From Haliotis asinina (Eukaryota > Mollusca > Gastropoda > Lepetellida > Haliotidae), in contig NC_090281.1 in the NCBI RefSeq assembly GCF_037392515.1, positions 43,314,645 through 43,378,644 of the forward strand: a stretch of DNA of 64,000 nt, in the 5' to 3' direction. Shown here piece after piece: positions 18,201-60,602 of this stretch. Positions within the stretch are counted from its first letter, which is position 1, and every line of letters starts with the position of its first letter. The notes below the pieces were generated by a model. That model saw only the letters and a program-made list of their open reading frames with translations, did no database searches and was not told where the DNA came from. A program made the position numbers and the translations under genes.

Positions 18201-18558
18201 GTGCACCATGTGTTACTGGATGTGATGATGGTGGCTCATATATGCCGGTGGTGGTGCCCCATGCATTGGTGGATGTTGTGGTGTACTCATGTATGGCTGC
18301 GGCGGTGCCCCATGCATTGGTGGATGTTTTGGTGTACTCATGTATGCCGGTAGCTGTGCACCGTGCATTGGTGGATGTTTTGGTGTACTCAGGTATACCG
18401 GTGGTGGTGCACCATGCATTGGTGGATGTTGCGATGTACTCATGTATGCTGGTGGTGGTGCACCATGTATTGGTGGATGTTTTGGTGTCCCATGTAATGC
18501 CGGTGGTGGTGCACCATGCATTGGTGAATGTGATGGTGGTGTCTCATGTACATGTATT
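15202..18558. repeat. 51-bp minisatellite array 1 (~65 units)
   Basis: The unit core is 'catgcattggtggatgttgt' followed by a variable half such as 'actcatgtatgccggtggcg'. Period is 51 bp, with a minority of 53-54-bp variants beginning 'ggatgtgatggtggtgtctc'. Since 51 is divisible by three, several frames stay open on both strands (minus: HPPMHGAPPPAYMSTPQ, 17 residues). Unit variants are interspersed, implying repeated local duplication. I do not interpret these frames as genes. Confidence 0.97.
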
Positions 18559-37587: not shown

Positions 37588-38121
37588 TCAACTCCAGTCT
37601 GTCGGGGGATAACCCTTGTACAACCCGTTAAACAGAACAGCAGCAGTGACGAACAAAAGAAACACAACGGCAGTGACGATCCCAAGAGTTGTCTCCCATG
37701 GGTGCTTGACCATATTCTTCAGAACTGGCACGCCCAGGAGTACACCTGTGATAAACAATGTTCGTATATAAGAAGTGATCTCTCAACTGAAGCACATTTT
37801 CATAATCACAGGTACTTAAGGCCGCTTATTTTGGGGTGCAAATGATAAAACCTCGTTAGCAGTCATGGTGGCCGAGTAAGCATAGTTTTCCGTTTACAGT
37901 TCCGTTAAATCTTGACCAACACTGGATCAGGATGATGAGAAAGAATTCATAATGTGACAGTGTCATTAATGATCAGTCTATGTTGTAAAATATTCAGCAA
38001 TTTCTCTCGACCTTTCAAATAATATAGCTAACCAGCTTATATAATCACGATCTCATTACTTGTGACGTCGTGGAAACCGATGACATCGCAATAGTCGGCA
38101 AAATGTGCTCACATATTTGAT

Positions 38122-38184
<63 letters not shown>

Positions 38185-41100
38185 TCCACCAAGCTCATTT
38201 GTTATCTAACCATAAATGTTTTTAAACGTACTTGTTTGTACTTGTTGTACCTGGGATACGATGACGTGCATTTATCTAAGTCGCCTAGCACATCGGCTGA
38301 AGAAGACCAATAACTGCCCGGATATTCGCGGGTTTAGAAACTCCTAGATAAAAGTATACATAAGCTTGATGCAACGTTCAAACCAGGCCAGTCATATTAA
38401 CCGAGCCAGTTATTAAGAAACCCAGATACATTTGATAGAAAATCGTACGTTTCCGATCTCTAATATCTGAAGAACTTATGTTTACATAGAAAATGAAGTC
38501 AATATGGAGTGTACTAGACGTTTTCACGCCTGTCCCTGCATCGAGGAACGGTTTGACGTGCTCTTGTGAATGGTTGTGATAAACGTAGTTATTGTCGAAC
38601 ACGGTATGTGTTGTGTGTACAATACCTGCTAGAACACCGCCAATATGAGCCCCCACTGCAATTCTCCAGTCCTCATGGGAAACCACGTGCTTGTATATGG
38701 CGCGACCGAATTCATGTAAAACTGAAACAGGGTAAATATCGTTATTATTCAACGTAAGAGCCGCCCTTTTCGGTTCGTTCCCAAATGTCTCGTTTTATTT
38801 CGATATTTAGATTCTTTTAAAAAATTTACCTAACATATTTATATATCTCGTTGGGATTTCATGTTTAACATTTGCCACGTAAAGCCAATGGTCTCGTGTG
38901 TCTTGGAGATAACATTTATGGCGTGAAACAGTATTCAAATTTCAAAAGGCGATATATTTAACTGCAAAATATAAAATCGTGAGATTTAGCACCCAAAATG
39001 GTTCTTGAAACAAGGCAATCTGATGCTATTTCATTGCAGCACCATTTCCAGTGGTCGTTGCAAACGATAGGGATGCAAACAAATTGTTTTTGACTGGGGT
39101 CGTATTCGAAGTACCTGGATAATCCCCTAAACAGGCCAGATATACGCGTTTCTGGTTCTGTAGCCACACAGGTCATTCCCTACGGTTCACAACTTTGTAC
39201 AACTGGAACATTGGGGAATCGTCTTCAGCACTCACGACCAGTTTCAATGTATGCGACTGACTCTCTATGAACAATTTGTCCCATATTTAACAGTGTCACC
39301 TACCTAATGGCAAAACCACTACGAGTCGAATCGGAGCAGTTGATACGGTGCGGTCCATGTGACGAGGCAGACATTTGCATGAACACTCACACCTCACTCG
39401 CATTTGTTTCCAGTTCTGTAAATGTTACATTGCAAACACATCATCAATACAGCGAAGAAACCCGACAACGACGGTGTAGTACTGTTATTAACGTCTGTAC
39501 TGAAGGGTCATTTACAATATGGCTGTCTAGCGTAAGTGTGATTTACCCTATCAACGTTTATGTAATATGGTATAGTGTCATAGCCATGTCTCTAACAATG
39601 TTGCACACAAACAGCATATAATTTAGAATGTTAGAATGTTTTTTATTATTCTTAAGGGTACATCAGTAAGTACCGGTTCACAATTCTGAAAGTTTGTAAG
39701 ATAGAATTTCAAATTGCATAAATATTTTCAGAACTTTGATACAGGAGTACAAAAGAACGTCTCGAATATAGAGTCTATTATCAATGTTATATTGGGAATA
39801 TAGATCCTATTTTGTGTCATGAAAATTGAAAATTTCTGTAAAAACACACATGAACTTTTGAAGTTTTGGAGCAGATTGGTTAATCCCATATAAATGGATC
39901 GGTTTGGCAGTTAGGATAGTATAATTCAATAATCTGTACAGCTTATCAAATCTAATAAATATAGGACATTTGTACTAACAGCATAACGTGATACCAGTTA
40001 GCATCACACGGGTCGGGTTGTGTTTTATTTGTCTCAGCGGTGAGGTGGCCTAGTCGTTATAGTGTTCGCCAGTTCCCTCGCCTTGATTTTGCAAGAATAT
40101 TGCTGAAGGCGACGTAAAACTAAATTCATCCAATTACTCTGCCGGACTCACCGTGATAGGGAGAAGTTGTGTTCTGACTCACCGTGATAACAACAGCCAG
40201 ATGGACACCCACAAGGGAGAAGTTGTGTTCTGACTCACCGTGATAACAACAGCCAGATGGGCACCCACAAGGGAGAAGTTGTGTTCTGACTCACCGTGAT
40301 AACAACAGCCAGATGGGCACCCACAAGGGAGAAGTTGTGTTCTGACTCACCGTGATAACAACAGCCAGATGGGCACCCACAAGGGAGAAGTTGTGTTCTG
40401 ACTCACCGTGATAACAACAGCCAGGTGGGCACCCACAAGGGCAAACGATCCAGCACTCGCTCCCACCAGGGCCAGGTCATGTTCTATCATTGAATGGAGC
40501 AGAGAACCTGTAGAACAGAGAAAATGGGGACCTATTGTTTCTGGAATCCACGCGGGGAGACAGACATGGGTTGGACAAATCTTCGCTTATACCCCACTGG
40601 TACACAGTAATGGCCCGGGCAGGGATACTTGGGAACTGTTCATTTTGGAAAAACCACAGGGAGACAGGCATGAAGTACAGGGGACCTATATGCTACCTGG
40701 AATATCAACAGTGGACTAAGTTATATAGGTCCACGCAATCGATTGGCCATTCGTAGCTGATACGAATACGAGTTGACACGAGTCGATGCTTTTTCATACG
40801 AGTTGTTGCGCTGGAATGCGAAATTGGCACCTCAATTCAATGTCACTATCTGGTGTCCCGTTCAGATACAGACTCATACGTTGTGATAGGATTGTTCCCA
40901 TCGAGTCCACGTTTGGGGATCTGGTACTTGCAGGTACATACCGATACCTTCATCGCCATACCCTCTGTTGCGACAAGATACGTTTGTGGTCGCGATGACT
41001 TTCACGATCACGATCGTGGATGATAACGGCTGAAGCTACGACTGGACCCCGTCGGGTATGCATACAGCCCGACTGACCATGGACTTCATAGTTTCTTAAA

Positions 41101-43561
41101 CTTCTACAGAATGAACACAACATCGCACAACCTTTGTGATGCTTGTCTTGTCCACGACTGATTCCGATCACTACGAGTCTGAAGTACGATTAGATGGAAT
41201 ATGTTGCGCTTACTTACAATGCAACACGATTTGATGCGACTGATCACGACTGACAATTAATCGTGTTAATCGAAGCACCGTCCAAACTTTTGCCACGACT
41301 GACCTTACGATCTGATTAGATCTGACAGCATCACCACGGCTAGTCCGCGATTATAGTCGCGATTTCAATCGTGGCGTGAATCGTGATAGTGTGAGCCTCG
41401 TACTGCCATGGGGGTCATGTCCATGTCACCTGCTGTAATACAGAGAGACGCATCCACCTGCCAGGGGCGTGGCACCTACCTGCAATAACGCCACACAGGT
41501 ACACTATCATAACTCGCCACCACTTGTGAATCATCTCCAGGGACAGGCCCACGAACAGCTGGAGAAGCATGTTGCCAATCAGGTGTTCATATCTATAATA
41601 AAGAAGACAGAAAAAAAAACAGCGATGAATACGACAAAGACGGCGATGGTATTGCTCCTTTGATTGTCGTGAAACAGCCATATCCTTACAGTTCTTATTC
41701 AAAATAGGAACATACTGTGTGACTTTCAACAATCTGGCTTCCCCCAGGGTTGTGGGGTACAGTGGCGGTAAAAGCGTCCGAAGGTTTGGGTTCCCCACAC
41801 GGACACATGCGCATACCTCAATCCTGGTGTGCCTTGTCGTGATTAGTGCCCAAAGCGACGTAAATCCTCACTCACCCCTGGTGTATAAACATGTAGGTGA
41901 GATATCGCCAGGCCTCATAACGCCGTGTGGGCAAGTACACCAAAGGGCTGTTCCGGGGGTACCCGGTGGTAGCGGTCACGGGATTCGAGGTTCCAGCAAG
42001 CTCCACAACATAAGCAGCGAATATCGCTATCTGAAAGAAAAGAAAGAATAAATACATCACAAAGATTTACGTCTAAATTTCTAATCCGAGCTATCATCTC
42101 CCCACCTACGGCCAACAATACTGCTGGACTGGTATCTCTAATACACGTATGATTGCGTCAAGCTGTCGCTAAACATAATACACGGATACAGATCAACATG
42201 GGTCGGTGTACACACACGATTAACTCTACTGACAAGGCGAGTATGTGAGTTTCTATTTTGTCCAGATGTATATTTCAGAAATTTCACAGTGTATCACTAT
42301 GGACTATTGTTATGACGGGAACATAGATGTCTCACCTGGGCTAATGTTATGACGGGAACATAGATGTCTCACCTGGACTATTGTTATGACGGGATCATAG
42401 ATTTCTCACCTGGACTATTGTTATGACGGGAACATAGATGTCTCACCTGGACTATTGTTATGACGGGATCATAGATTTCTCACCTGGACTATTGTTATGA
42501 CGGGATCATAGATGTCTCACCTGGACTATTGTTATGACGGGAACATAGATGTCTCACCTGGACTATTGTTATGGCAGGGATCATAGATGCCTCACCTGGA
42601 CTATTGTTATAACGGGAACATAGATGCCTCACCTGGACTATTGTTATGACGGGAACATAGATGCCTCACCTGGACTATTGTTATGACGGGATCATAGATT
42701 TCTCACCTGGACTATTGTTATGACGGGATCATAGATGCCTACCTGGACTATTGTTATGACGGGAACATAGATGTCTCACCTGGACTATTGTTATGACGGG
42801 ATCATAGATGTCTCACCTGGACTATTGTTATGACGGGAACATAGATGCCTCACCTGGAAAATTGTTATGGCAGGGATCATAGATTTCTCACCTGGACTAT
42901 TGTTATGACGGGAACATAGATGCCTCACCTGGACTATTGTTATGACGGGATTATAGATGTCTCACATGGACTATTGTTATGACGGGATTATAGATGTCTC
43001 ACATGGACTATTGTTATGACGGGAACATAGATGTCTCACATGGACTATTGTTATGGCAGGGATCATAGATTTCTCACCTGGACTATTGTTATGACGGGAT
43101 CATAGATGTCTCACCTGGACTATTGTTATGACGGGAACATAGATTTCTCACCTGGACTATTGTTATGGCAGGGATCATAGATGCCTCACCTGGACTATTG
43201 TTATGACGGGATCATAGATGTCTCACCTGGACTATTGTTATGACGGGAACATAGATATCTCACCTGGACTATTGTTATGACGGGAACATAGATGTCTCAC
43301 ATGGACTATTGTTATGACGGGATCATAGATGTCTCACCTGGACTATTGTTATGACGGGAACATAGATGTCTCACCTGGACTATTGTTATGACGGGAAAAT
43401 AGATGTCTCACCTGGACTATTGTTATGGCAGGGATAAATATTGCCGGGGGGTAACAGTTGCAGTGCTTCAGGTAGTCACTCTTTCTGACCCCGATACAGA
43501 TGTGTGTCACACAAGGCGTCAACATACACCTCTTGCACGGATGCAGCTCTGTACTGCTATC
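37588..43561 (-). CDS. RHBDL: Rhomboid-family intramembrane serine protease, gene 2 (7 exons found; N-terminal exon not located)
   Basis: Coding exons in transcript order: 43412-43561, 41876-42030, 41480-41592, 40407-40507, 39304-39415, 38626-38721, 37588-37745 (stop TGA at 37588-37590). These give 294 residues in one open frame with GT-AG junctions. It is the closest relative of gene 1: HPCKRCMLTPC, RYEAWRYLTYMFIHQG, HLIGN, GASAG with the nucleophile Ser, AHIGG with the catalytic His, ending KGYPPTDWS. The loop exon 39304-39415 is 12 nt longer than in gene 1 and Cys-rich (RCECSCKC). It shares the GASAG and Phe substitutions with gene 1. The located part starts at phase 0, so one short upstream exon like gene 1's 31-codon exon is expected at higher coordinates. 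I searched 43.6-47 kb by eye without finding it, so a missing start cannot be excluded. Two of its exons are followed by minisatellites that copy their 3' ends and splice donors. Confidence 0.88.
38122..38183. repeat. (AAC)n microsatellite
   Basis: About 20 AAC triplets in the last intron of gene 2. Confidence 0.97.
40036..40135 (+). repeat. tRNA-derived SINE
   Basis: Head 'ggtggcctagtcgttatagt', tail 'gaatattgctgaaggcgacg' and 'taaaactaaattcatcc'. Intronic in gene 2. Confidence 0.75.
40147..40401 (-). repeat. 56-bp minisatellite copying the end of gene 2's Ser-motif exon with its splice donor
   Basis: Donor motifs (ctcac on the plus strand) occur at 40178, 40234, 40290 and 40346, then at the true exon donor 40402: exact 56-bp steps, plus a partial one at 40147. 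Each unit holds ~35 nt equal to the end of exon 40407-40507 (the region coding VGAHLAVVIT) and ~21 nt of intron. Units match the exon with one or two changes. No acceptor precedes the copies. Confidence 0.95.
42303..43411 (-). repeat. 37-bp minisatellite copying a gene 2 exon end and splice donor (~30 units)
   Basis: Unit 'ctattgttatgacgggaaca' + 'tagatgtctcacctgga'. On the minus strand each unit contains 'ataacaatagtccag|gtgag', identical to the end of exon 43412-43561 (…AITIVQ) plus its 5' splice site. Variants include 'gatcatagatttc' and 'ggcagggatcatag'. The array begins directly at the true donor and runs downstream for about 1.1 kb. Confidence 0.95.
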
Positions 43562-44430
43562 CTGTAACACGCAGTTGGTACAATAATGTTACAGCATATT
43601 ATTGGAAGGGATGACAGCTGTAATAATGTTACCTAGACACAAACATGTTCTAAAAATACTATCACATAATTTGTCCACAGTTATAAGAATACAAAGTAAC
43701 CATTCACCTGACACTTAATGCATTACTTGTTTTATGAGGTTTGTCAACCAAGTCAGCGAGCATGACAAGTTACTGAAGGTCGATTCTAACCCGGACATTG
43801 ATATCAGCTGAGATTATGTGGTACAAATCTAATATCAGCTGGTATATCGCTGTGTCGTGTAATTCTTAAATTAAAATAATTTAAATAATCGCACAGAGCC
43901 CCCGAAATCTCGTTACACCGAATGAGTCACTACCTGGGAATGTCGGTTACACATTGGCGTATAACCACGGTACATGTATTATGTAACGAGTGGAGTACAT
44001 ACATCACCCCATTCAGCATCCACCACATCCTTGCATCTGCAGCCACATCCAATACACATGGCTGCCCTCTGATGTCCTCGACTGTCCTCAGATGTTTTCA
44101 ACTGTCCTCGATTGTTTTCTGCTTTCTCTAGTCAATTGTCTTGTGCTGTCTTGAATAGGTCATCTGTCCTGATCCATCTTTACATGTCCTCGATTGTTTC
44201 CAAGAATGATATCTTAGTTTCAGTTGTCTTCAACTGTCCCCAACGTCTTTTAGATATGTTTTGTGTTTCAATGGTGCATAGTCGTCTTTAGCTGTCTTCG
44301 GCCATGCTCGGTTCCTTTACATAATCAGACACTGTTCTCCACAGTTTTCCCTTGTCCTCGACTCTCTTTCACATTGCCATTTGTCCGGAACTGAAACTGT
44401 AAGGTATCTGAAACTGTTCACGTTTATCCT
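43562..44430. other. Upstream of gene 2's located exons: SINE fragment and tgtcct-rich tract
   Basis: 'gtcaaccaagtcagcgagca' near 43745 is a SINE V piece. 44050-44420 has many scattered 'ctgtcctc/ttg' motifs, a degenerate simple repeat. No gene 2 first exon found. Confidence 0.5.
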
Positions 44431-45974
44431 CAACAGTCCGCAACTGTCCAAGGTTCACTGTAGTATGTGGAGACACCCTGCCGCCACACCAGCGAGGGAT
44501 ATCTTGCATGCACGCCTCCCCAGGAGAGGAACAGTACTGCAGACCTGGGAAGTTCCTTTTGTCGGTCTGTATGCCTCGTCGCGGTCTGCTGCAGCGAATA
44601 TCAACTAGATGTGCATGTCACTGTACCTTTTACCCACCTTACAGTTCAATACTATTGTAGATATTCAAGAATGAACTCCCGATGGTGATGCCAGGGCTTG
44701 GATGTCATCTGTGCTTGTTCTCAAAGCCACCTTTCAAGAGTAAAGTGGACACGTACAGTTCGCAATTACAACTTGCAATCTTATTTTTGTTTGATAACAG
44801 GTGTAGCATATGGGACGTGTGACACATGGCTGGTCTATGCAACTCAGTTCAGGTACGTTAGACATCGGGTTATGCATTGACATGTCAATAAATATGTAGG
44901 TGCATCTACACGGGGAATAAGCATATCAATGTAGTGAGTGAATATTACTGAATACCGGTGCATTCAGCCTTGCAGCTATTCGAGGATAACACAAGTGTGA
45001 ATATATACCCTGTAAATCTTTAGTGGGGAGACGGAGAGAGGAGACGGGAGACGGGGTGGGACGGAGAGGTAGATCCGCGTTTCGAGTTTATGACCTTGAC
45101 AGTTTTTGTATTTTCAGTATCGACTTTGCAGTCAACAAACCAATGTTAGCAAGTGCTTTAACAGCTTAAGCCGATATGAGAACTGACATTTTTGTATAAT
45201 TCGTTCATTCACATGTTTAAACACGCCAATGCTGCGTTTAAGTACACTTGTACTAGTAGGATAAAACGTACCCGATGTCGACGTATAATGAGGTCGTGAT
45301 GGAGAATTTGTGGCCAATGAAGCTGCCGCCCTCTTCCTTTCTGTTCACATGTATATGCATCTACACTGGCAGGCCTCGACAGGTATGTCAGGTCGAACAC
45401 TTCAAAACAAAGCAGTACGTCTAATGACTTCATTCAATATTCAATGATGAGTGATGTTACATACACTGGTGCTCGTTCAGTGTAAGGTGTGCCTGCTGCA
45501 GGGTTGATTCAAGTGAATATGTAGATTCTCCCGGACGTTGAGCTTGTGTATGGGACACGACTGTTTACATAGAGGTGGGAGTATTTTGTTCTCGTCCCTC
45601 TTCTCTGTAACGTACGTGACAACACGTGACACAAGTGGGGAGGGGGTGTATACAATCATCTGGACATTCTGCGTCATATTCCTTGCATGGTTCACTGGAC
45701 ATTGAGCAAAAGGCACCAAGAGCTTGCGCATAACAGACGCTGAATAAGAGATCGGAATATGTGGCGTCATTGTATTGACAAGTTCATTGTGCATTGAGTA
45801 TGACCCAGACATTCTGTCTATCTCCTTTCTGAGTCTGAAATGGTGAAATGAAGGACGTCTGCTATTTGACTTCAACGAATCACGACACACAGAGTAAGCA
45901 AAGCACACAGCAACGTTGGGTGATTATTGTTAGTAATTACAATAGGATATATGCAATAGGATATATGAGCATCA

Positions 45975-45978
<4 letters not shown>
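44431..45978. other. Nothing recognised
   Basis: Several open frames exist, including a 143-codon minus-strand one, but none resembles a known protein or the expected gene 2 first exon. Confidence 0.4.

Positions 45979-46035
<57 letters not shown>
45979..46035. repeat. (CA)n microsatellite
   Basis: About 28 CA dinucleotides. Confidence 0.97.
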
Positions 46036-46037
<2 letters not shown>

Positions 46038-46244
46038 GACACATATATCATTGCGACTGTCCCATTCATAGCTGGTTGATAATAGTTCTGGTTGTAATTT
46101 TACAGCCATAATTACTGTGTGTAAAAAAGACATGACAGAAGAATCGGAGCATCTGACGGCGTGTCTGGTTCAGGAGTGAATCATTATTTCTTCTCCAACA
46201 CCGAGATGAAAAACAACCAGTCTGCTGACGTCGGAAGGAGCGTT

Positions 46245-46560
46245 TTGTTTCGAGCTGTACAGATGTTCTACGGGTGTACAGATGTTCTACGGGTGGACAG
46301 ATTCTGTGTCGGAAGGGCGATGGCGAGGGGAGCCATATCCCTAAGAAGGAGACGTTTCTTATTAGTGGCTGGGGGTGTCGCAGTAAAACGTTTTATAAAC
46401 TAGATTCGTGACCGTCCCCTTCTTCCGATTATGTCAAGGGAATTGTTTCAGCTTGAGTAAGCTATATCATACATAACTTGTGTGCCTGGTGAATGCCTCC
46501 ACAGTCCACAGTGTTTCGAGCTGTACAGATGTTCTACGGGTGGCTGTACAGATGTTCTCT
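46245..46560. repeat. Short duplicated motif, gagctgtacagatgttctac
   Basis: The motif 'tacagatgttctacgggtg' occurs twice near 46257-46295 and again near 46523, with a further 'tacagatgttctctac' at 46547. Confidence 0.8.
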
Positions 46561-46804
46561 ACATCATCTCTCCTTTCGAAGAATTTTCCAGTTTGCCTAT
46601 TGCCCAAAATGGAGTCTGTTTCTGCAGAGAATGGTTGTCTGGTGCTGCATTTTGGTATTTCAATTTGTTATTGTTAAACAGTGATAGAGACAATAACTCC
46701 AAAGTGGCATACAACCAGGTGGTCTACATGGTTTGTTTTGATTCTTGTTCAAAGTGACACTCAGCAATATCCCATCTAAAGTGATCAAATAATTGACCCC
46801 TGTC

Positions 46805-46985
46805 AAGATAACCCGGGGACAGCAGTCTGAGCATCAATCTATGCAACTGTGACATGATGGCAACCTTGACAGCAAGCCTGACTACCCGAGCCTTTTGTTA
46901 CAACAACCGTGGGTTGTCAGCAAGCCTGACTACCCGAGCCATTAGTTACAACAACCGTGGGTTGCTGAAGACCAATTCTAACAGG
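46805..46985 (-). repeat. SINE V fragments, tandemly duplicated piece
   Basis: 'gcatcaatctatgcaactgt' then 'agcaagcctgactacccgag' twice (46870 and 46918), each followed by 'acaacaaccgtgggttg'. Confidence 0.65.
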
Positions 46986-47984
46986 TCTATTCATGCGTCC
47001 TGTGTACTGAAGTGTGATATCACCCATTAAAGAGTTCTGGTGAACATTTCCCTTCTGATATTCACTATTTCTCCATATCATCCAGATCTATTAAGTCACT
47101 CCACATGATGTTGACTGACTGATCCATTCAGTGACCAGGGCACAGCTTCAAACTTGAAAACACTATCAGGTACTCTTGGTAGTGGTCTTGATTCATCTCA
47201 GTTAGCCACTCACCCTCTTTGACTGCACAGGATGTTTGAGTTGACCAGTCACTGACATGTTCTCATGACATGGCATCAAGGGCAAGTTGTTTCCTTGTTG
47301 TTGGAAAGAAACAGTTAAACTCAAACAAAAGTTGTATATTAAGATTTAATTCCTTACAAAACAGTGCAAGTTATCCAGAATCACATATTGCTTGACATGT
47401 CCTGTCACACACATGCATGACATCTACACTTGTTATAACATCATTATAAAACAAAATAACAACATGCTCATTATAAATTATTGACGTAAAGAAATACTGA
47501 ACCATCATAACAGGATATGCTGGAAATAAAGATATCAAATTCAACTGAAATATGTACACATATATAATTCAAGTAGCAATGTTTCACAAAAGAACATTCA
47601 ACATCTCATTTGTCTCAAACCAAGGTATTTGATAAGACTAAATAAAAATTCAACAGGAAGTGATGGTTAAGCATGTACCATTCCTCCCGACACACTTACT
47701 GACATGACTTACCTCGGAGACAAATTCACATGACGCTATAGTGGAGATTGTGAATGAACCCAAGACAAGCAAGCACGCAAATCCGACTGTTGGATGCAGA
47801 TGATAAGCATCAACTGATTCCACTCAATGTATTTATTCATAAGCCTTGTGAATCTCAATAATATTCATATCAAAAGTCAAGACATGCCACAGTATATGGA
47901 TATTTCAAAGAGCTAACAGTAGAAAAATAGTAAAAATCTCAAAACATCACTGACCATAAAAATATGAATTGGTAGACACTATAA

Positions 47985-48163
47985 GTTATCACATCGTGTC
48001 TTGGGAAATACAGGGTTTTATCAGTCCCTTGTAAGGTTGTATTCCCCGAGCCGGAGAAATACAGCGTTTTATCAGTCCCTCGTAAGGTTGTACGAGGCTC
48101 GGGGAATACAACCTTACGAGGGACTGATAAAACCCCGTATTTCCCTAAACACAATGTGATAAC
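47985..48163. mobile_element. Hairpin MITE, ~70-bp inverted arms
   Basis: 47985-48053 and 48092-48163 are inverted copies: 'gttatcacatcgtgtcttgg' against 'gtttagggaaatac...' read in reverse, and 'aaggttgtattccccgag' against 'ctcggggaatacaacctt'. The loop is ~38 bp and itself holds a second copy of 'ttttatcagtccctcgtaag'. No coding capacity. Confidence 0.85.
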
Positions 48164-49298
48164 GCATTTATCTAGCTGAATGTTTTTACTAAATCAAAAC
48201 AAAACAACAAGCATCGAATCGACTTGTGTTTATATATGTGAGATGCCACTGTTTGACCTCAATGCACCGCACGTTACTAAAGGCTTGTCGATGCATGCTT
48301 TTCTCACTTAGCGTCGTCACCGAGGCGTAGCGGGGTGATATGGCTTTCGTAGCGGGATTACATGACTTTTATACTCCCACTCCTGGATTGTGTTGGATTT
48401 ACATGGTATTTTATCAGAGTCATGTGGACCAACTGTGCAACTAAGAATATGACACATGTAGTGTACATGGCAAGAATATTTGATGACAAAACATGACAAA
48501 ATGATTGTATCTTATACCGTGAGGGAATAAAATGAAATCATTTACTTCAACCCTCTGGTCTCCAGAAAAGGAGGGCTGTTCTGTTGTGGAAAGTAAAACA
48601 CATGCAGTGCTTTGTGAAGGTCAACAGTAATACACATACTTCGTTGCAGGGGTTATTCTACATGAAACAAGAGCAATGTCCGTGAATTATCAGCAATGGA
48701 CTACACTCACAATCATCCTTCTCATTTAATAATATACACCCCCAAAATAGAAAAATACATTAACATTGATGCTATGATTTTCTGTATATTTCTAGTTAAT
48801 TAACTTGTTCACACTCAAATACAAAATACACATGTACATCACTAGATAATTACTCTCTTATAATACAAAAGTAATACAAAGATAAATTGGCAGTGCAAAG
48901 GATCAAAAGCACTACAAAACTGAAAAATAAAACCAATTCATACAAATATATTGATTCTATAAATAATCTATCCTTACATATATAAAAACACACTGATCTG
49001 ACACTCCACTCTGTTCAGCCTGGTAAACATATTAAACCATTTCATTTGAAGTCATGTTGTCTGACTCTCTGATCACTATACAGTGTACTGGATACTTGAC
49101 CAGGAGTTGATTATAAGGTTCTTCTTCACTGCTTGATCTCTTTGTCACAATATTTCACTTTCTGACCTGAGTTCATTACAATTTGTACAGCCATCTTCTT
49201 ACCTGTATGTCATTGTCTGGCAAGTTACTTTTTTACTTTTCTTCTTTATCTGTGTTGCTAATTGATCCTGTGTTACTATTTGACAACTATTGCTTCTT
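48164..49298. other. Intergenic, AT-rich; nothing recognised
   Basis: Downstream of gene 3; part could be a long 3' untranslated region, which the sequence alone cannot show. Confidence 0.4.
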
Positions 49299-49535
49299 GG
49301 CCTATGTCACCACTGGACCTGTGTTACTACAGGACCTGTGTTACCACTGGACCTGTGTTACTACAGGACCTGTGTTACCACTGGACCTGTGTTACTACTG
49401 GACCTGTTTTACTACTGGACCTGTGTTACCACTGGACCTGTGTTACCACTGGACCTGTGTTACTACAGGACCTGTGTTACCACCGGACTCATGTTACTAC
49501 AGGGCCTGTGTTACCGCTGGACCTGTGTTACTACT
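49299..49535. repeat. 17-bp minisatellite (~14 units)
   Basis: Unit 'ggacctgtgttactaca' alternating with 'ggacctgtgttaccact'. A 17-bp period cycles through all frames, so three overlapping open frames appear with 17-residue repeats. Confidence 0.93.
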
Positions 49536-50739
49536 TGCCCACTATTACTCAATGACCACTGTATTTCTATTTATTGACCTTTATTACTATTTATTGACCT
49601 TTATTACTTATTATTCTGTTTCACTACTTGACCAACATGTCACTATTTGACTGATGTACCAGTGTCCAATCAGCTTGTCAAATCCAGCATCAAATCATTT
49701 GTAAGTCACTCTAATGAAACATTTATACTTTGATTACATCATCAAAACTTGGTAAATAAATAGTATAATAGGATAATGCATATCCTGATTTTTCATTCTC
49801 TACAATACTTTCAGTTTGAAAGAGGACATTGCTGTACATTCTTCAATACTGATAACAAACATGAGGATTGTCCTGAAGTAAACCCTCTGAGCATCTACTT
49901 GGAACTATCAACTCGAACTGTCATCACTCTCAGTGACAATAGAAACAAACAATATTATGCATCTACTTAAAAGACAACAATAACATACCGAAGTGTTACT
50001 CAATATTACTGATAAAAATAAATACCTGTTCTACAATTATATCTTTATTATGACTGGGAACTTGATTTTAATATACCTTAGTCTAAAGAATTGTTTCAAC
50101 GTACAAAATCTTACAATACATCATTTTGGAACCTAAGAAATGCTTTCACTCATGCAGCCCATTTCTTTCATTTTTATAAAAGGGAATAACTTTTACAGAT
50201 ACTCTAAAAAGATCTGATTTTGAACTTTCCTTTAGACTTTGATCACTGATGCTTTGATCACTCTAAATACATATCTAAATTTTTAATATTTGTTAATATT
50301 TTGATCACCAGTGTTTTGATATATGAAACAGAACTATGAGCCATGTAGATATATATTTACCATATCTGTGATATTAGTGTGGCAATACATGACATATTTT
50401 CCTTTGAGCTTGCCATGATAAAACACCACACACTATACTAAACTCTGATTTGCACTTTTGATATACAGAAATGATTGTCTTATTAGATCATGCCAGCTGG
50501 ACAGAAATATTCCAAGTTTATATTCAGATCTACATGACAAGTTTAAGGCACATATGAAAGTATACTAGTTTGGACATAACAGTGATGACACATACACATT
50601 TACACTCAAATTTATCCTGAGAAAGTTATGAAAGAAGAGGATATGCTGAAAAATGTTTAAAATATTATGGGTATGTACAGTTATGCCAAATGTCATATAA
50701 CCTAAAACGTTCAAATTGCATGCTGCCACTCTGAGCTCA
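49536..50739. other. Region 3' of gene 3, nothing recognised
   Basis: Very AT-rich; presumably includes the 3' untranslated region of gene 3. Confidence 0.45.
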
Positions 50740-53700
50740 CTAACTCCAATCTGTGGCCGGGTAGCCTTTGTAGAGACCATTGAAGAGAACGGCAAACGCC
50801 ACCAGCAGCAGAAACACAGCCATTGTGACCCAGCCGAGAGTTGTCTCCCAGGGGAGCTTCTTGATGTTCTTCAAGACAGGGATACCCAGCAACAGACCTG
50901 CAGATAGAGAGGAACATCAGAAGAATATCCCACCTGGAGACAGACTGGACATGACTTGCTCACTGAACACCTTCCATGCCAGTCCTAGCCACTGAACTCA
51001 TTTGGACATATTCATCACCTAACACACTTTCAGACCACTTTACTGAATACCCCATACACTCTCCATTATCATCCATAGCCAGTCAGCTGCTTTGTCCAGT
51101 TTGGCCACCTGTCACTGTCAGCATCTCACCCTCTGTCACCATGTTAACCGCCTATCAGACCTTTGATCAGCTTACATCTTCTGTAAGCAACAGGATCACC
51201 CGTCACCATCTTGACCAGTTGTCACCATGTTATTCACCTATCAGACCTGTGACCAGCTGGACCGCCTTATACCTCCAGCAGCTGGACCACATATCAATCT
51301 TGTCCACCTTTAAACTCCTGCCACAGTCTTGAGTGCCCATCATCCCGCCACCATCTCGACCACCCATCATTATCTTTCCAGCTGTCACCATGTCGACCAA
51401 CTGTCTCCCTCTCAATCATCTGTCCCCATCTGAACCACCCAGTGACCATCTGAACCACCCGATCACCATCTGGACTGCCCATCACCCAGGGATGGCAACA
51501 GAAAAATCAGTTTTCAAATGAAAACGTAACAATGTGTCATGAAAAGGGGGTTCAGATGATTAACAAAATTGATCAGTTTGAAATAAAATCAGCTGAAATG
51601 CACATAAAATTGCCATTCCTGATCCACCTACCAACCCATCACCATCTTGACCATCCATCACCAACTTTCCACCCGTTACTATGTCGACCATTTCTCTCCC
51701 TCCGGCATCATGATGACACCTATGTCCTTCAGCACTCACCTGTCAGGAACCCTCCAATATGAGCGGACACACCAACTTTCTACCTGTTACTATGTCGACC
51801 ATTTGTCTCCCTCCGGCATCATGATGACACCTATGTCCTTCAGCACTCACCTGTCAGGAACCCTCCAATATGAGCGGACACACCAACTTTCCACCCGTTA
51901 CTATGTCAACCACTTGTCTCCCTCCAGCATCATGATGACACCTATGTCCTTCAGCACTCACCTGTCAGGAACCCTCCAATATGAGCGGACACACCAACTT
52001 TCCACCCGTTACTATGTCAACCACTTGTCTCCCTCCGGCATCATGATGACACCTATGTCCTTCAGCACTCACCTGTCAGGAACCCTCCAATATGAGCGGA
52101 CACACCAACTTTCCACCCGTTACTATGTCGACCATTTGTCTCCCTCCGGCATCATGATGACACCTATGTCCTTCAGCACTCACCTGTCAGGAACCCTCCA
52201 ATATGAGCGGACACACCAACTTTCCACCCGTTACTATGTCAACCACTTGTCTCCCTCCAGCATCATGATGACACCTATGTCCTTCAGCACTCACCTGTCA
52301 GGAACCCTCCAATATGAGCGGACACACCAACTTTCCACCCGTTACTATGTCAACCACTTGTCTCCCTCCGGCATCATGATGACACCTATGTCCTTCAGCA
52401 CTCACCTGTCAGGAACCCTCCAATATGAGCGGACACACCAACTTTTCACCTGTTACTATGTCGACCACTTGTCTCCCTCCGGCATCATGATGACACCTAT
52501 GTCCTTCAGCACTCACCTGTCAGGAACCCTCCAATATGAGCGGACACACCAACTTTTCACCTGTTACTATGTCAACCACTTGTCTCCCTCCGGCATCATG
52601 ATGACACCTATGTCCTTCAGCACTCACCTGTCAGGAACCCTCCAATATGAGCGGACACACCAACTTTCTACCTGTTACTATGTCAACCACTTGTCTCCCT
52701 CCGGCATCATGATGACACCTATGTCCTTCAGCACTCACCTGTCAGGAACCCTCCAATATGAGCGGACACACCAACTTTCTACCTGTTACTATGTCAACCA
52801 CTTGTCTCCCTCCGGCATCATGATGACACCTATGTCCTTCAGCACTCACCTGTCAGGAACCCTCCAATATGAGCGGACACACCAACTTTCTGGTTCTCTG
52901 GTGCTGTGACTCTTCTGTAGATTGCGAGACTGGTATCTGGCACAACTACAAACATACATTTGAATATTTGAATGAAAGGAGGCAGCCTTTACAAGTTTTG
53001 ATTTTCTGTCTTTAACCAACATGATTACAAAGGATAACAGGCATGGTAAATAGCACAATACAGCTGTGCTTGGTGACTGCTGCACATGTGGGTAAGTAAA
53101 AATGGTAGAAACATTTACCACATGTATTGTTTGATATAGAATTGCCATTTCCATAGGCCAATCACTATAAGCATGAGGACACACAGCAACATGTCCACTA
53201 CTTCTACATGTGACATGTGACCCTACTGGGTGACTCACCGAGGGCCAGGATAATGAAGAGCCTGACAGGGGCACTCAGTAGAACACGCACGATGTTACCC
53301 TCACAGCACTTGTAGTTCATCTCCTTCCAGTTCTGCAACAGAGACCATGTTACATTTCACTTCAAGCCACAGAGTAGACATTTTGTGGGAGAACCGATAG
53401 GACACATATTTTTAGAGACTTCTAACATAGAAAACATGTACAGTTAGTGTCACTCACTCAAAGACTTAAGTTCCCAACAATCTTCATTGCAATACCTGTA
53501 CCTGAGTTGCTATAGATTGCAATGCAATTTGTTTGCCAACACACATCCCTATGAACTGCGCTCATAAGCAGGTTATGTGAGGTGACGTACCGTTGCTACT
53601 GCAGCTAGATGAGCTCCAAGCAGGGCATACACCCCTCCACTAGCCCCGACAAGTGCCACAGAATGGTCTGTCACCGAGTGAGCCAATGAACCTGGATAAC

Positions 53701-56700
53701 AGAGGTGACGTTTCACACAAGCAGAACATATACATTTGTTTAGTGTCAATCGGTACATATACAAGCTCTACATTAGCCCCATCATTTAGATCAGCCTCTT
53801 ATTTTAAGCCTCAAGTTTAAGCTGTAAAGGGAGACAACCAACAAAACAAGTATCATAAATTCAGAAATCAATCTCAGCTATACATAGATGCCATTGTTCA
53901 ATAGAGAATGATTTTATAAAATATTAACCAGAAAAACCACAACTTTCAATCGTTTGTTATAAACATTTGTTGCACTGTGAAATGAATGGATATGTAATGG
54001 ACATCTGTTTACATCATCTGTAATAACTCGCCTCTTTCCATGACCTTGTATCTGTATAGTACAGCATTTTGCCAAGAATTGTGGCAAACTAATTGAATCT
54101 CATGTCATAAAATGTGACATGAGGTCAGATAATTTCCTTGAAAATAGAGGTTTTCATTATCATTTCCGTGACTATAAAATTATTGTTAATGACATAAGAA
54201 ACTTACACACTGTGTCTTTATCATAATTTCTAGGAGTAGCCATAATTGGAATAGTTTAGATCTTTCCCTGGAAATACTCCAAGACTGTTTTCATCTCCAT
54301 GCTTAAACAACGCCCGGTCATGAACATGGCCAAGAGAAAGGTACGAATCGCCATCGGCTTGCCAGAATGACACAAGTAGTTACAAATGCTGGTTGGATAC
54401 AAGGGAGGTAACTTGTACTGTGTGACTGAAGCTAGTGGTTGTGTTTCAGTGTCTGACCATAACCAGTGCTGCTAAGTCTGTCTATGTTTACTACAAATAG
54501 TCAGATGGCTAAAATGATAGTACAGCTTGATGAGTATTGACAAAAATAAGTAGCAACAGTCTCCATCAGCATTTAACCAATTATTATTATTTTTCGATTA
54601 CAACATTATTCAGTTTGTCAGTATACCTACCTGCTAGAACTCCACACAAGTACACCACCATGACTCTCCACCACTTGTGTACGATCTCTAGTGGCAGACC
54701 AAACAACAGTTGAAAGATCATGTTGGACAGTATATGTAGATATCTGTAACAAAAGGCCTGATCTTAGATTCTAGCCATTAGCTCAATTTGTTTATATAGC
54801 AAAATCTTTCAATGACATTATGAGCTAACACTTGAATATCTTCCTTATATAATCATAAATTTTAACAAATGCTATTGGTGGTACTGCTAAACCGGCACTC
54901 ATCGGGACTGAACAAACAATTTGGTTTAGACAATGTGCCGGAGTGTAGACGTGATAATAAATGTACAAGCCACAAGAGGTACTGAGACTTAATGCCAGTG
55001 TTGACAACTTGCTGAATTGGATAGATGCCACTTTTGACAGCTTCCATTGTACTTCATTTTCTTTTGCATTTGGGGTAACATTGACACACTGTTGGAAAGT
55101 GGATGCATGTACTGTATCATACAAAAATCATTTGATTTGTTTTGGTTTGCTTTGTGACACATCTACAGCTACGATAAGTGTTAAGCACAGCTTTATCCCT
55201 GCAATGGTGGACTATGAATTTGAAAAGAAGCAAATGAAGGCATGTATATTCGGCTTTTGAAAATATTTACTTTCTAATGAGAAACTGTACTTTGTGTTGG
55301 CCTGGTAGTTTATGAAATGTCTAAAATTGTTCAGTAAAATTGGCAGAATTCACATTTGTACATTTATAGTGTAATTCAAATTCAGTAATTATTAAAAAGC
55401 TTGGTTCATAAAATATCTCCCCAACTATACTGTCATTCTCTTCAGTTGATAGTCTTTTATCCCTGTTTTCACTCCCAAATCCTGTAAAACAGAATTTACA
55501 TTTATTCCTCTAACTCTCAATACAGCCATTTGACAGTTTGCATATACTTCCACTTGGCATTTAACCTGGCCATGTTTTAGTAATAACTGCAGTGTAGTGC
55601 TAGTATAATTTCATGATTGTTATAAGCTGCTTAAAATAATTCAGAAACAGTTTGTTGGTGTACATACCCTTGATGTATAAACATGTATGTGAGGTATCGC
55701 CAGGCCTCGTATCTGCGTCTCGGGGTGTACACAAGGGGACTGTACATAGGTACTCCACTTGTGGCTGTCACAGCTTCACCTTGCTTGGCCAATTCGGCAG
55801 CATAAACACCAAATATCACAATCTGTAACAGAAACAAGAGGAGGTGAAGAGTTATCTCCCTTTGATCAGATGTTGACCATAACTGTCTGTGCAGATGTTG
55901 CATGATTTTTGCAAAGATACTGTGGATATGAATTCATGGAATATCTCGTATTACTGACTGAGATTCTAGTTTAATGTGTCACTGGTGTTATGCTGTCTGG
56001 AGCTGCAGTATTTGCAGTAGGCAAGTGAGAAATGTTTCAATGGAAAGTGGTCAAGAGTTACATGTGAGATTACACTAGACTAACGTCTAGTCTCTGAAAT
56101 CAACATATTCTACAGAAAAAAAGAAAAAGAGTTCCTGAATTATAAATATAAAAAAGGAGCCAACAGACAGGTGTGGAAATCTAGATTTGGCACTTGATTA
56201 GACTAGATAAATTTGTTTAAGGGTCGGAATGACTCAGTAAAGTACATATTCAAGCACTTTTGTTGGGTTGAGTCTCATCCATGATCTGAACCCCCACCAA
56301 CAGAGTCAGGCACCTAATCACTGATTAGTAATCAGTACATAAAGTCAGCCATCTAACCCACTGTGCCAACATGACTGCCACAAATATGAAAGTTGGACAA
56401 ATTGTTGGCTAGACCACAGACTTTGTGTACCCCTCTGATGAATATAAACTGGCAGCTTCCAAGGCCGATTAGCCACTAGCCTCTGAGGGTGTGGGTTCAA
56501 ATCCTGGCTTGGACTCAACCCAACCAACAAAGTACTAGAATCTGTATTAGACAGAGAAATCCCAAATACTACACATAACATTTAAACAGTTTCTAAATGG
56601 CACTGTGTATTAATCTTTCCCTACTGTAACTAAAGGAAGATTCATAAATTATGTAGGGATCAGGAGTTTGTAACACTGGGAAAGACTGATAGACCAATGT

Positions 56701-59700
56701 TATATTTATGGTGATAATAGTAATATTATCTCACTGAGCTGTAATAACTCTTGGTCATTCAGACTGATGCTCCAATATATATTTCATGTCGTCTTGACAG
56801 TCCAAACCAAATGTACAAAAGCATAATCATCATACACATTCAGACAAACCTTGGTTTAATCAGTCCTGGATTAATCAGGGACAGACAGAAACAATCAGAC
56901 ACGACTGCTGGACGTTGTCACATGTAAGTGGTCAGTATTAGATACTACCAGTCACAACTAGTTTCTTTCTCAACAGAAGCTCATCCACCACGGGAGTCAC
57001 TGTCAACACAGGTGCTACAGATGTGAACCACAGGTCTTCGCACACAGAAATGTACACTCAACAAAGTCAAAATGCAGAAACATACCTGATATCCTAAATG
57101 GCCAACAAAATCATATTTCGTAATCCAAATCTGAAAGTGTATATTGTTGGTCCTGTTCGGCTGATTGTGAATGATATTCCGCACCGTGAAACATTTGTTA
57201 CTGTATGTGCCTTTCTTATATAACACGATCAAATAATCATCTAATACAACAGTATCACAGATCTGATTGAGAAAACGACACAGTGTTGTGAGATGCAAAC
57301 ACAAATACATTTGTCACAAATAAATGTTTTGTGTGCCAGACAGTGCCTTGATTGTTAGCCCCTACATTTGGTTGAAAAATTGAAATGAAATGAACAGATG
57401 AAAACCTGACATGTGATTGAAAAACAGACTTTCTTTGTTATTATTGTTGCAGTTTTGTTGAGTGTCTGTCCCTCAGGACAGACAGAAAGTTGTTGGCTCC
57501 CACAATACTGACCAATCGTGTAGTGTCGAAGGAGGTTTCCAAATACCAGTTTATGACCCCGAGCAAATGACTTTTTCTGCATATATTGATTATATTTATG
57601 AAATAGGAGCCTGTGGAATGAAATCCGACTGAAATGAAATTCCTGAAATTTTGACTAAGTTTCACAGTATACAGCATACAGCAAACTGAGGTGTACGTCT
57701 GTAGTACCCCTGAAGACAACAACCCCACTGGTGGATGAACGTGTGTTCAGAAAGAAACTGGTTGTGTCTGCTATTGTCTACTACCAACCACGTATATGTG
57801 ACAACATCCAGCAGTTCTGCCAACAGTGACCCCTTCAGCACCAGTGATGGTGTGACTTACTTCAGCAGTGCTCATGATGATTATGAAGAGAGGAGGTGGA
57901 CGGCAGTTGTAGTTGGCAAGAAAGTCATTCCTCATACTCTGTGGCACAATGTTGGCAATGGCTGCCCCAAGGACACTTCTGAAAGCCGATCTTTCAGACT
58001 TTGTAAGACCTTCATCACTCGTCATCTGAAAAGATTGAAAAATGACTGATAAACATCGGTGTTTCATGTTTAGACTCGCTACGCTATCCTACTAGGGTCT
58101 GTGTTGTGGAAACTGCACTGTAATCATTATGTAGTTGAAAATTTGGCTTTTGATGTCGGATATGGTCAAGTTTATGTAAAACAAATGATCTTCTCATCTC
58201 TATCAGTCTGTGTGAAACAAGTAGTCACATAAGGTAGAGAAGCTGTCCTGAGCTGGACTAAAATAAGAAGCTTTAATGTCTCGGAGGGGGTGAGCATTTT
58301 CTCAGACACTATACTACTTACAAGATTAACAAACTCAGTGTAAGTGATCATGTTGTCATCATTGTAGTCAGCTCGGTCCAGCAGCTGGTTGAGGCGCCGC
58401 TTGCTGATCTTGTCGGTGATACCCTCTTCCTCCATTTCACGCTGCAGATCCCCCAGCGCCACACCCTCCGGCCCATGCTGCAACAACAACATCAAGGTAA
58501 CAACTGCTCCAAGGCTTGACACAAACAACAACTATTCTGAGGCTTTATAATAACAACAAATTTCTGAGGACCTACTGTAAGAACAACTGTTCCGAGGCTC
58601 TATGGTAACAACTGTTCAAAGGCTCTTGGGTAACAGCTTCTGTAAGGCTCTATGGTAACAACTGTTCAAAGGCTCTATTACACAACAACATCTGTAAGGC
58701 TCTGTGGTAACAACTGCTGTAAGGCTCTGTGGTAACAACTACTTGAGGGCTCTATGGTAACAACTGTTATAAGGCTCTATGGTAACAACTGTTGAAATTC
58801 TCTGTGGTAACAACTGTTCAAAGGCTCTGTTATACAACAGTCTAAGTAAGCTTATCCTCAGTACTTTTCGTTACACTCCACCACTGAGTATAACAAAACC
58901 TTATGGGAGGTCGCGTCAGGTAACCTTTGAAATTAACCAATCAGAACACAGCTTACCAAATCGCGAAAGTGTACATTCACACATTTCTTATGAACTTTTT
59001 ATCTCGAAAAGGTTCGTACCCGAACGATTCCAAATGCTATTTAGAGTACGATCGCTTCCGGGTGATACACACGGCGTACATACTGCCATGACAACGGTGA
59101 GTAAACAGTCGCTGAAATAGTGTTTTTGACAATATTTAAGGATGTTATCTTGCGGAAATATTAGCTAATGGTAACCATGTCAACAGAAACCCCAAAGCGT
59201 ACATACTGCAGGTCAAATAACTGTTATATGCTGATTTTTGTTTGTGGAGAGATCTGTGTTGGTGATCTGAATATTTTGAAAGTCCCTCCGATCCCTAAAT
59301 AGTAGCCGTTGTCTGATCGGTTAAATCTATTTCACAGTCTTGCATTTGATTGGACTGTCATTGATTGCTCAAAGCTTACCTGACGTGACCTACTAGGTTT
59401 TGTTAGACTCAGTGATGAATACACTGAGATGAAGTTTACTTAGACTGTATTATACAACAACTTCTGTAAGGCTCTGTTCACATCAATTCATGTAACTAGT
59501 TTCAACATCTTTTTTATAAGGACAATGTACTTATAGGCATGTTCTATTCCAAAGGTAGAAAATTCCAGGATAAATATTGTAAAATCTGATGTGACCACCA
59601 TTCTGCAAGTGTCCCAATCTCTGTCTATGGACCAAGTGTCTACAGCTGTTGCAGGAGATATAAATCATGTTCCCAGTGCCCATAACACCTCCACCACAGC

Positions 59701-60250: not shown

Positions 60251-60602
60251 CAATCAGAGACATCCACAGCAGGTAAATCCAATGAAAAGAATAAAATGTC
60301 CCCAATCGTCAGCACCCGGATCATGTGACATTAATATTATCCAATGAGAACGCAGATGGATATATTGTCACCAATCAGGAGCACAGCATCCACATCATGT
60401 AACATCAGCATTATCCAATGAGAACGCAGATGGATATATTGTCACCAATCAGGAGCACAGCATCCACATCATGTAACATCAGCATTATCCAATGAGAACG
60501 CAGATGGATATATTGTCACCAATCAGGAGCACAGCATCCACATCATGTAACATCAGCATTATCCAATGAGAACGCAGATGGATATATTGTCACCAGTCAG
60601 AA
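60251..60602 (-). promoter_or_regulatory. CCAAT-rich 74-bp repeats upstream of the gene 3 start codon
   Basis: Four units at 74-bp spacing each carry 'tatccaatgagaacgc' and, except the last, 'caccaatcaggag'. CCAAT occurs at 60279, 60302, 60341, 60371, 60415, 60445, 60489, 60519 and 60563. The motif 'ccaatcagg' fits the NF-Y site. The position just 5' of the ATG suggests the core promoter or 5' leader, which is inference. Confidence 0.55.

Follow-up and report, generated by a model that had tools for sequence, protein, structure and literature searches.

Minisatellites that begin at 5′ splice sites in two rhomboid paralogs of Haliotis asinina, and arrays of a donor 9-mer at exon ends elsewhere in the genome

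Introduction

Tandem repeats that touch splice sites have been described in a few settings. In one human gene, IFI6, two downstream repeat units are used as splice donors (PMC4526556). Human genes in segmental duplications carry minisatellites, with a mean unit of 30 bp, at exon–intron boundaries, and 162 alignments yielded 27 intron modifications after inspection (PMC2812944). Minisatellites also occur within introns, as in the CeRep25B family of C. elegans, which is linked to multiple alternative splicing (PMC4039745), and in the metallothionein genes of earthworms (PMC12783039). Our literature search, which lay mostly outside subscription papers, found single-gene and boundary precedents only and no genome-wide bias toward donors. 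Here we describe three minisatellites that each start at the 5′ splice site (donor) of an exon and run into the following intron, in two rhomboid paralogs, genes A and B, of the gastropod Haliotis asinina. Both genes lie on the minus strand of a 64,000-nucleotide stretch of contig NC_090281.1 (the window; C2:43314645-43378644, where C numbers the contigs), and the pattern was sought elsewhere in the genome, which comprises 1.14 Gb in 159 contigs.

Results

The unit of each array contains an exon end together with its 5′ splice site. The first copy is the end of the coding exon itself, and the later copies are intronic. The 37-bp unit joins ~16–24 bases of the end of gene A exon e2 to the start of the intron. 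The 56-bp array, at A e5, has CCCT at both bounds, and a separate 13-letter donor-like partial copy lies next to it. The 111-bp unit, at gene B e7, starts in the exon at GAAAGTTGGTG, and the intron-side end of the array is the same 11 letters, followed by unrelated sequence. Such short direct homologies would fit duplication between them, a reading drawn from expanded alleles. Donor-like sites number 29, 6, and 11 in the 37-, 56-, and 111-bp arrays, respectively, and the 37-bp array has one further, altered copy. Few of these sites could give a normal message: the frame stays open only for donors 1–2 of 29 and 1–2 of 6, donor 2 being out of phase in both cases, and only for donor 1 of 11. Tandem Repeats Finder (TRF) and the gene models thus bear out the preliminary description of this stretch, which had reported arrays of 37, 56, and 111 bp running from rhomboid donors into introns.

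That description also proposed that the three arrays arose independently, and the paralogs support this. In the TRF list, the corresponding donors of the sister gene are free of arrays; hence, the births were independent and followed the split of A and B. Exons e3, e4, e5, e7, and e8 are equal in length in the two genes, whereas e2 (150 bp in A, 165 in B) and e6 (112 and 94) differ. The equal lengths mean that the introns stand where they did in the common ancestor and that the donor with which the 56- and 111-bp arrays begin was inherited from it. Introns lie at the same places in both genes, and the arrays lengthen them but add none. Another part of the description, which placed two arrays lying wholly within introns of one gene close to the homologous exons, was not borne out: no such array is in the TRF list near B e2 or B e5, the homologs of A e2 and A e5. 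If gene B was meant, the remaining minisatellites of that gene, at 58582-58828 and 60320-60600, are both upstream of the first exon found.

Genes A and B themselves suggest an association with one kind of donor. Thirteen donors were found in them; three of the five that read GTGAG carry arrays, against none of the other eight (one-sided Fisher p=0.035). All three minisatellites of these genes with at least three copies and a unit >30 bp sit at donors, with none elsewhere in the 9.4 kb of intron that remains when arrays are reduced to one unit. If three such arrays were placed at random in the introns of these two genes, the chance that each fell across a donor (any of the 13) is 5.7e-4, a post hoc figure. 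Across the window GTGAGT occurs 66 times against 42 expected and GTAAGT 36 times against 35, the excess coming largely from arrays and GTGA runs.

For the genome-wide survey, an array was defined as three perfect copies of the donor 9-mer CAGGTGAGT at a spacing of 24-54 or 55-85, and the motif read backwards, TGAGTGGAC, served as control. Array counts for CAGGTGAGT, TTTTNCAGG, AAGGTGAGT, and CAGGTAAGT are those among the matches listed, which come from the first contigs; counts for TTTTGCAGG and the control cover the whole genome. Three-copy matches to CAGGTGAGT numbered 592 versus 88 backwards at the shorter spacing and 580 versus 56 at the longer. Single sites are themselves unequal, however (12862 versus 6369), and matches must therefore be collapsed to distinct arrays and scaled per site. 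We classified 28 arrays: 19 of the 20 distinct ones listed at spacing 24-54 (C1 to C3:17.6 Mb, with C3:17600885 left out) and nine new ones at 55-85 (C1 to C2:51.8 Mb). By eye, an exon-like donor stands at the start of 19 of 28 (13/19 and 6/9). Exon letters are recognizable within the repeated unit of 16 of these 19, which gives a strict count of 16/28; in the other three (C1:99.0 Mb, C2:32.8 Mb, and C1:56.0 Mb), little of the exon is repeated beyond its last few letters.

Single CAGGTGAGT sites are exon-like far less often. The sample consisted of the first sites listed, all within C1:0-10.1 Mb; 89 of 100 were kept, and 11 were omitted as extra copies in two clusters, among them one real donor spanned by a 69-bp duplication in two copies. 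About 14 of the 89 looked exon-like, several uncertainly and two with arrays (19/28 versus 14/89, Fisher p=4e-7). The difference persists against unique singles (14/52, p=7e-4), for the strict count (p=4e-5 against singles and p=0.015 against unique singles), and in the strictest form, in which a pair of related IBR-type arrays (see below) is counted once and the omitted donor is added back (15/27 versus 15/53, p=0.027).

Two further measures agree. One is an automatic exon score, for which kinase exons and the exons of the window served as training set; it exceeded 4 at 10 of the 13 window donors and at 5-10% of 535 noncoding sites. It was applied to the 5′-most near-match of each array, entered by hand, and to 85 singles (four copies of two arrays having been dropped from the 89), of which 36 were repeat copies and 49 unique. 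At thresholds of 3, 4, and 4.66, it accepted 14, 14, and 10 of the 28 arrays, compared with 17, 12, and 6 of the 85 singles (p=0.003, 2e-4, and 6e-4) and 10, 7, and 6 of the 49 unique ones (p=0.008, 0.001, and 0.017). In Pfam, 9 of 18 array exon peptides matched at E<0.01; these stand for 10 of 28 arrays, the exon of the nineteenth exon-like array being a paralog of a submitted one. From the unique singles 12 of 49 were submitted, and 4/49 count as matching, including a close paralog of one match (p=0.004); one of the four is probably a spurious membrane-segment match. Above Pfam's own cut-off the counts are 5/28 and 1/49 (p=0.02). Scaled roughly from the 10-Mb sample, arrays occur at 3.3% (spacing 24-54) and 2.2% (55-85) of CAGGTGAGT donors and at 0.55% and 0.40% of unique non-donor CAGGTGAGT sites. 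Within these limits, CAGGTGAGT arrays are enriched ~5-fold at exon donors compared with unique sites of this 9-mer that are not donors, and the preliminary expectation of an excess at donors holds.

The exons in question belong to many unrelated genes. Matches above the Pfam cut-off are to a fucosidase (whose array has a 13-letter near-match at its bounds, again a short homology), CysRS, IBR, and ankyrin; the remaining E<0.01 matches fall below it. Two exons with weak Pfam matches belong to a DHX helicase and an ABC-C transporter by PDB matches, and one that we take to be ADAM-like has no PDB match. Two neighboring IBR-type exons, paralogs of each other, have donor arrays at C2:51810728 and C2:51829165; the units of the two arrays are related without being the same, and the arrays probably go back to a single birth and then diverged. 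The two-copy 69-bp duplication, which lies across an exon donor at C1:3950640-3951204, is possibly an array at its first step. In five other rhomboid matches (3-kb loci), no array touches the matched stretch, and two of the five have arrays elsewhere. A system specific to rhomboid genes, or to any one gene family as first proposed, is thus rejected.

One further rhomboid exon (C4:158228-161368; Pfam Rhomboid E=3e-9), which we take to be PARL-like, has a 41-bp x37 array that ends at its acceptor (locus positions 1-1511) and a two-copy duplication over its donor (~1612-1680). A locus on contig C48 is identical to it over the 350 bases compared.

Acceptors and other donors behave differently. Genome-wide, the acceptor k-mer TTTTGCAGG forms seven arrays, and by eye none of them lies at a real acceptor. 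The acceptor motif TTTTNCAGG has 65580 single sites versus 53052 backwards and 24 distinct arrays among the matches listed (584 Mb). Of the 23 read, two lie at real acceptors, one of a TLDc exon (Pfam E=1e-5) and one of a transporter-like exon without a Pfam match; the unread array, C2:47272618, is by its unit a paralog of C2:47250047. For the motifs tested, arrays are thus much more frequent at donors than at acceptors, as the preliminary description had expected. The donor CAGGTAAGT, which we take to be at least as near the consensus as CAGGTGAGT, has as many single sites (12478), with 280 array matches versus 39 backwards; fewer arrays occur at GTAAGT than at GTGAGT donors, and a strong-donor effect as sole cause is therefore rejected. 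AAGGTGAGT gave 323 array matches versus 114 backwards and 18 arrays among those listed, of which 10 were classified. Two of these 10 are intronic, shortly 3′ of exons that are presumably P450-like (one peptide had no Pfam match); at C1:86.52-86.58 Mb, such GTGAGT arrays begin ~100-150 bp past the exons and leave the donors untouched.

The preliminary description had further suggested that arrays are retained because decoy donors tune expression. In the intronic copies of seven exonic arrays, donor identity minus that of the rest of the unit ranged from -0.001 (the 37-bp array) to +0.094 and was positive in six; in four non-exonic arrays it ranged from -0.042 to +0.113. The comparison followed some of the arrays in part (6 of ~30 copies of the 37-bp array, four of the 56-bp array, and one copy of one IBR array) and is biased upward because most of the arrays compared were found by perfect donors. 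Purifying selection on decoys has at most a slight signal here. Donor identity barely exceeds that of the rest of the unit, and the later window donors mostly add stops or frameshifts; the suggestion is not borne out. Selection for in-frame units left no sign either: of the 16 periods that are clear (entered by hand), seven are divisible by 3, versus 5.3 expected.

The identity of genes A and B rests on Pfam (PF01694 Rhomboid, cut-off 22.6 bits), which gave E=2e-32 and 112.8 bits for gene B and E=8e-21 and 75.2 bits for exons e2–e5 of gene A, the only ones queried. A rhomboid hallmark is a catalytic Ser in a GxS motif with a His in a later helix. The translations read GASGG and SAHIGG in B, and GASAG and GAHIGG in A, motifs of the catalytic type. 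Gene B also has an EF-hand match below the Pfam cut-off. Modeling within the window found no exon upstream of A e2, and neither a start codon nor an exon 5′ of B e1. Coordinates are given in Table 1.

Table 1. Exons of the two rhomboid genes and their donor-spanning arrays (window positions)
Feature	Positions	Strand	Basis and details
Rhomboid gene A, exons e2-e8	37588..43561	-	gene model + Pfam
Gene A e2	43561-43412	-	ends CCAG, then gtgaga
Gene A e3	42030-41876	-	
Gene A e4	41592-41480	-	
Gene A e5	40507-40407	-	ends ATCACG, then gtgagt
Gene A e6	39415-39304	-	
Gene A e7	38721-38626	-	
Gene A e8	37745-37588	-	
Rhomboid gene B, exons e1-e8	50740..58477	-	gene model + Pfam
Gene B e1	58477-58322	-	
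Gene B e2	58025-57861	-	
Gene B e3	55822-55668	-	
Gene B e4	54743-54631	-	
Gene B e5	53691-53591	-	
Gene B e6	53332-53239	-	
Gene B e7	52945-52850	-	ends GACAG, then gtgagt
Gene B e8	50897-50740	-	
37-bp array from donor of gene A e2	42300..43435	-	TRF + gene model; TRF: 37 bp x 30.4 at 42300-43427, 92% matches
56-bp array at donor of gene A e5	40146..40441	-	includes trailing 13-letter partial copy; TRF: 56 bp x 5.1 at 40158-40441, 99% matches
111-bp array at donor of gene B e7	51659..52890	-	11 intact CAGGTGAGT; TRF: 111 bp x 11.1 at 51659-52890, 98% matches

Elsewhere in the window, TRF found two large arrays (15209-18550 and 29291-32260) that share a degenerate, G/T-rich unit of 51 bp and show higher-order periods. 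A 61-bp x7 array at 3055-3487 is 99% identical, and its unit has GTGAGTGA; reading of its flanks recognized no exon. An Rfam search of the whole window gave no matches. At C2:15536238-15536511 in the genome, a 53-bp unit combines an acceptor-like site, a mini-exon-like stretch, and a donor.

Discussion

Provisionally, the recurrent birth of minisatellites at donors holds, and the window provides one case of a wider pattern in which the preference for GTGAG remains without explanation. The account that we favor, although we would put it a little short of an even chance, is that tandem duplications of ~30-110 bp that span exon–intron junctions recur in unrelated genes and expand to minisatellites, with a bias toward GTGAG-type donors or toward gene bodies. 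The seeds may arise where short direct homologies shared by exon and intron allow slippage or end joining; a part for break repair or transcription, which the preliminary description had suggested, is possible. A duplication that spans a donor would be nearly silent, because the upstream donor remains in the native exon and would still be used; a duplication within an exon or over an acceptor would in most cases not be silent. Such tolerance could account for donors versus acceptors, but not for the excess over unconstrained sites. For that excess, a mutational bias that acts locally, whether at donors of the GTGAG type or throughout gene bodies, ranks as likelier than selection for extra donors.

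A stronger form of this account would make GTGAG 5′ splice sites genome-wide hotspots of minisatellite birth, with ~5% of CAGGTGAGT donors carrying an array of at least three copies, through a duplication process linked to sequence or to splicing that spares acceptors and GTAAGT donors. We regard this as possible but doubtful. Several observations weigh against the account that we favor. The evidence comprises only 28 arrays, with exon status judged partly by eye, compared with single sites from one 10.1-Mb region, and the comparison leaves the density of arrays in gene bodies versus intergenic DNA uncontrolled. The control TGAGTGGAC forms 21 distinct arrays genome-wide (0.33% of its 6369 sites; counted, none classified), and its nine in C1 to C3:17.6 Mb (0.72%) equal the total CAGGTGAGT rate there (0.75%, 19 of ~2538). 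Thus, the firmer claim is that CAGGTGAGT arrays favor exon donors, not that they are more numerous overall. CAGGTAAGT has 11 distinct arrays among the matches listed (381 Mb), 3-4 of them at exons, so that donor status alone is insufficient. AAGGTGAGT replicates the pattern weakly: 3-4 of the 10 arrays read are exon-like, and two of the 10 run past the fetched stretch. Array matches to TTTTNCAGG about equal those backwards (196 versus 189), whereas those to TTTTGCAGG are fewer (19 versus 103), and acceptor arrays do exist, at the TLDc, transporter-like, and PARL-like exons.

The most serious rival, somewhat less likely than the account that we favor, is a neutral filter: intron arrays would arise everywhere at one rate, those at donors would merely be tolerated, and the excess would reflect gene bodies and sampling. 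The near-equality of the total and control rates speaks for it, as do the small number of arrays at real acceptors and the richness of the genome in arrays, seen in the 66 partly overlapping TRF rows of this 64-kb window. Against it, donors are enriched within a single 9-mer when set beside unique singles by eye, in the strictest count, and by the automatic score, and all three minisatellites of genes A and B that have at least three copies and a unit >30 bp lie at donors.

The enrichment could also be an artefact of taking non-exonic sequence for exons, of regional sampling, or of young transposon copies that dilute the singles. The many repeat copies among the singles, the partly visual classification, the single sampled region, and the three arrays that repeat little exon sequence leave some room for this. 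We nevertheless consider it unlikely, since homology backs 10 of the 28 arrays, the DHX and ABC-C exons being named through PDB matches, and the enrichment persists without repeat copies and under the automatic score. Least probable is retention by function, in which extra donors would bind U1 as decoys, boosters of exon definition, or suppressors of premature polyadenylation and so tune expression: one intron does hold up to 29 donor-like sites, the IFI6 units do serve as donors (PMC4526556), and donor identity is slightly raised in six of seven exonic arrays (0.007 to 0.094), but that rise is small and overlaps the non-exonic arrays, the later window donors add stops or frameshifts, and CAGGTAAGT has fewer arrays. 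A function needing few copies would still fit.

If minisatellites are seeded by donors, or by one kind of donor, the origin of tandem repeats and the growth of introns are nonrandom and tied to splice signals; were the hotspot form true, exon ends would continually seed the growth of introns. Array-bearing introns also provide a ready-made setting in which to ask how the spliceosome picks a 5′ splice site when as many as dozens of near-identical ones are present, the majority of which would ruin the message.

It is useful to contrast these arrays with the known systems. Intron gain by tandem duplication resembles them in that a duplication across an intron–exon boundary copies the splice signals (PMC4974935); that process creates a new intron, whereas genes A and B share homologous introns that are only lengthened, and intron gain is therefore rejected here. 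The minisatellites of human segmental duplications likewise lie at exon–intron boundaries and alter the gene structure of paralogs. They belong to recent duplicates, however, and in the portion consulted no donor-versus-acceptor bias is stated, the word "donor" being missing from the main text (PMC2812944). CeRep25B shares the placement of minisatellites within introns of spliced genes, but it is one dispersed family, whereas the units described here derive from the host exon and vary by gene. The closest likeness in arrangement is to IFI6, in which a tandem unit that holds a splice donor sits at an exon end. There the arrangement concerns a single human gene with units in use as donors; here it is known from sequence and extends over many unrelated genes in one invertebrate genome.

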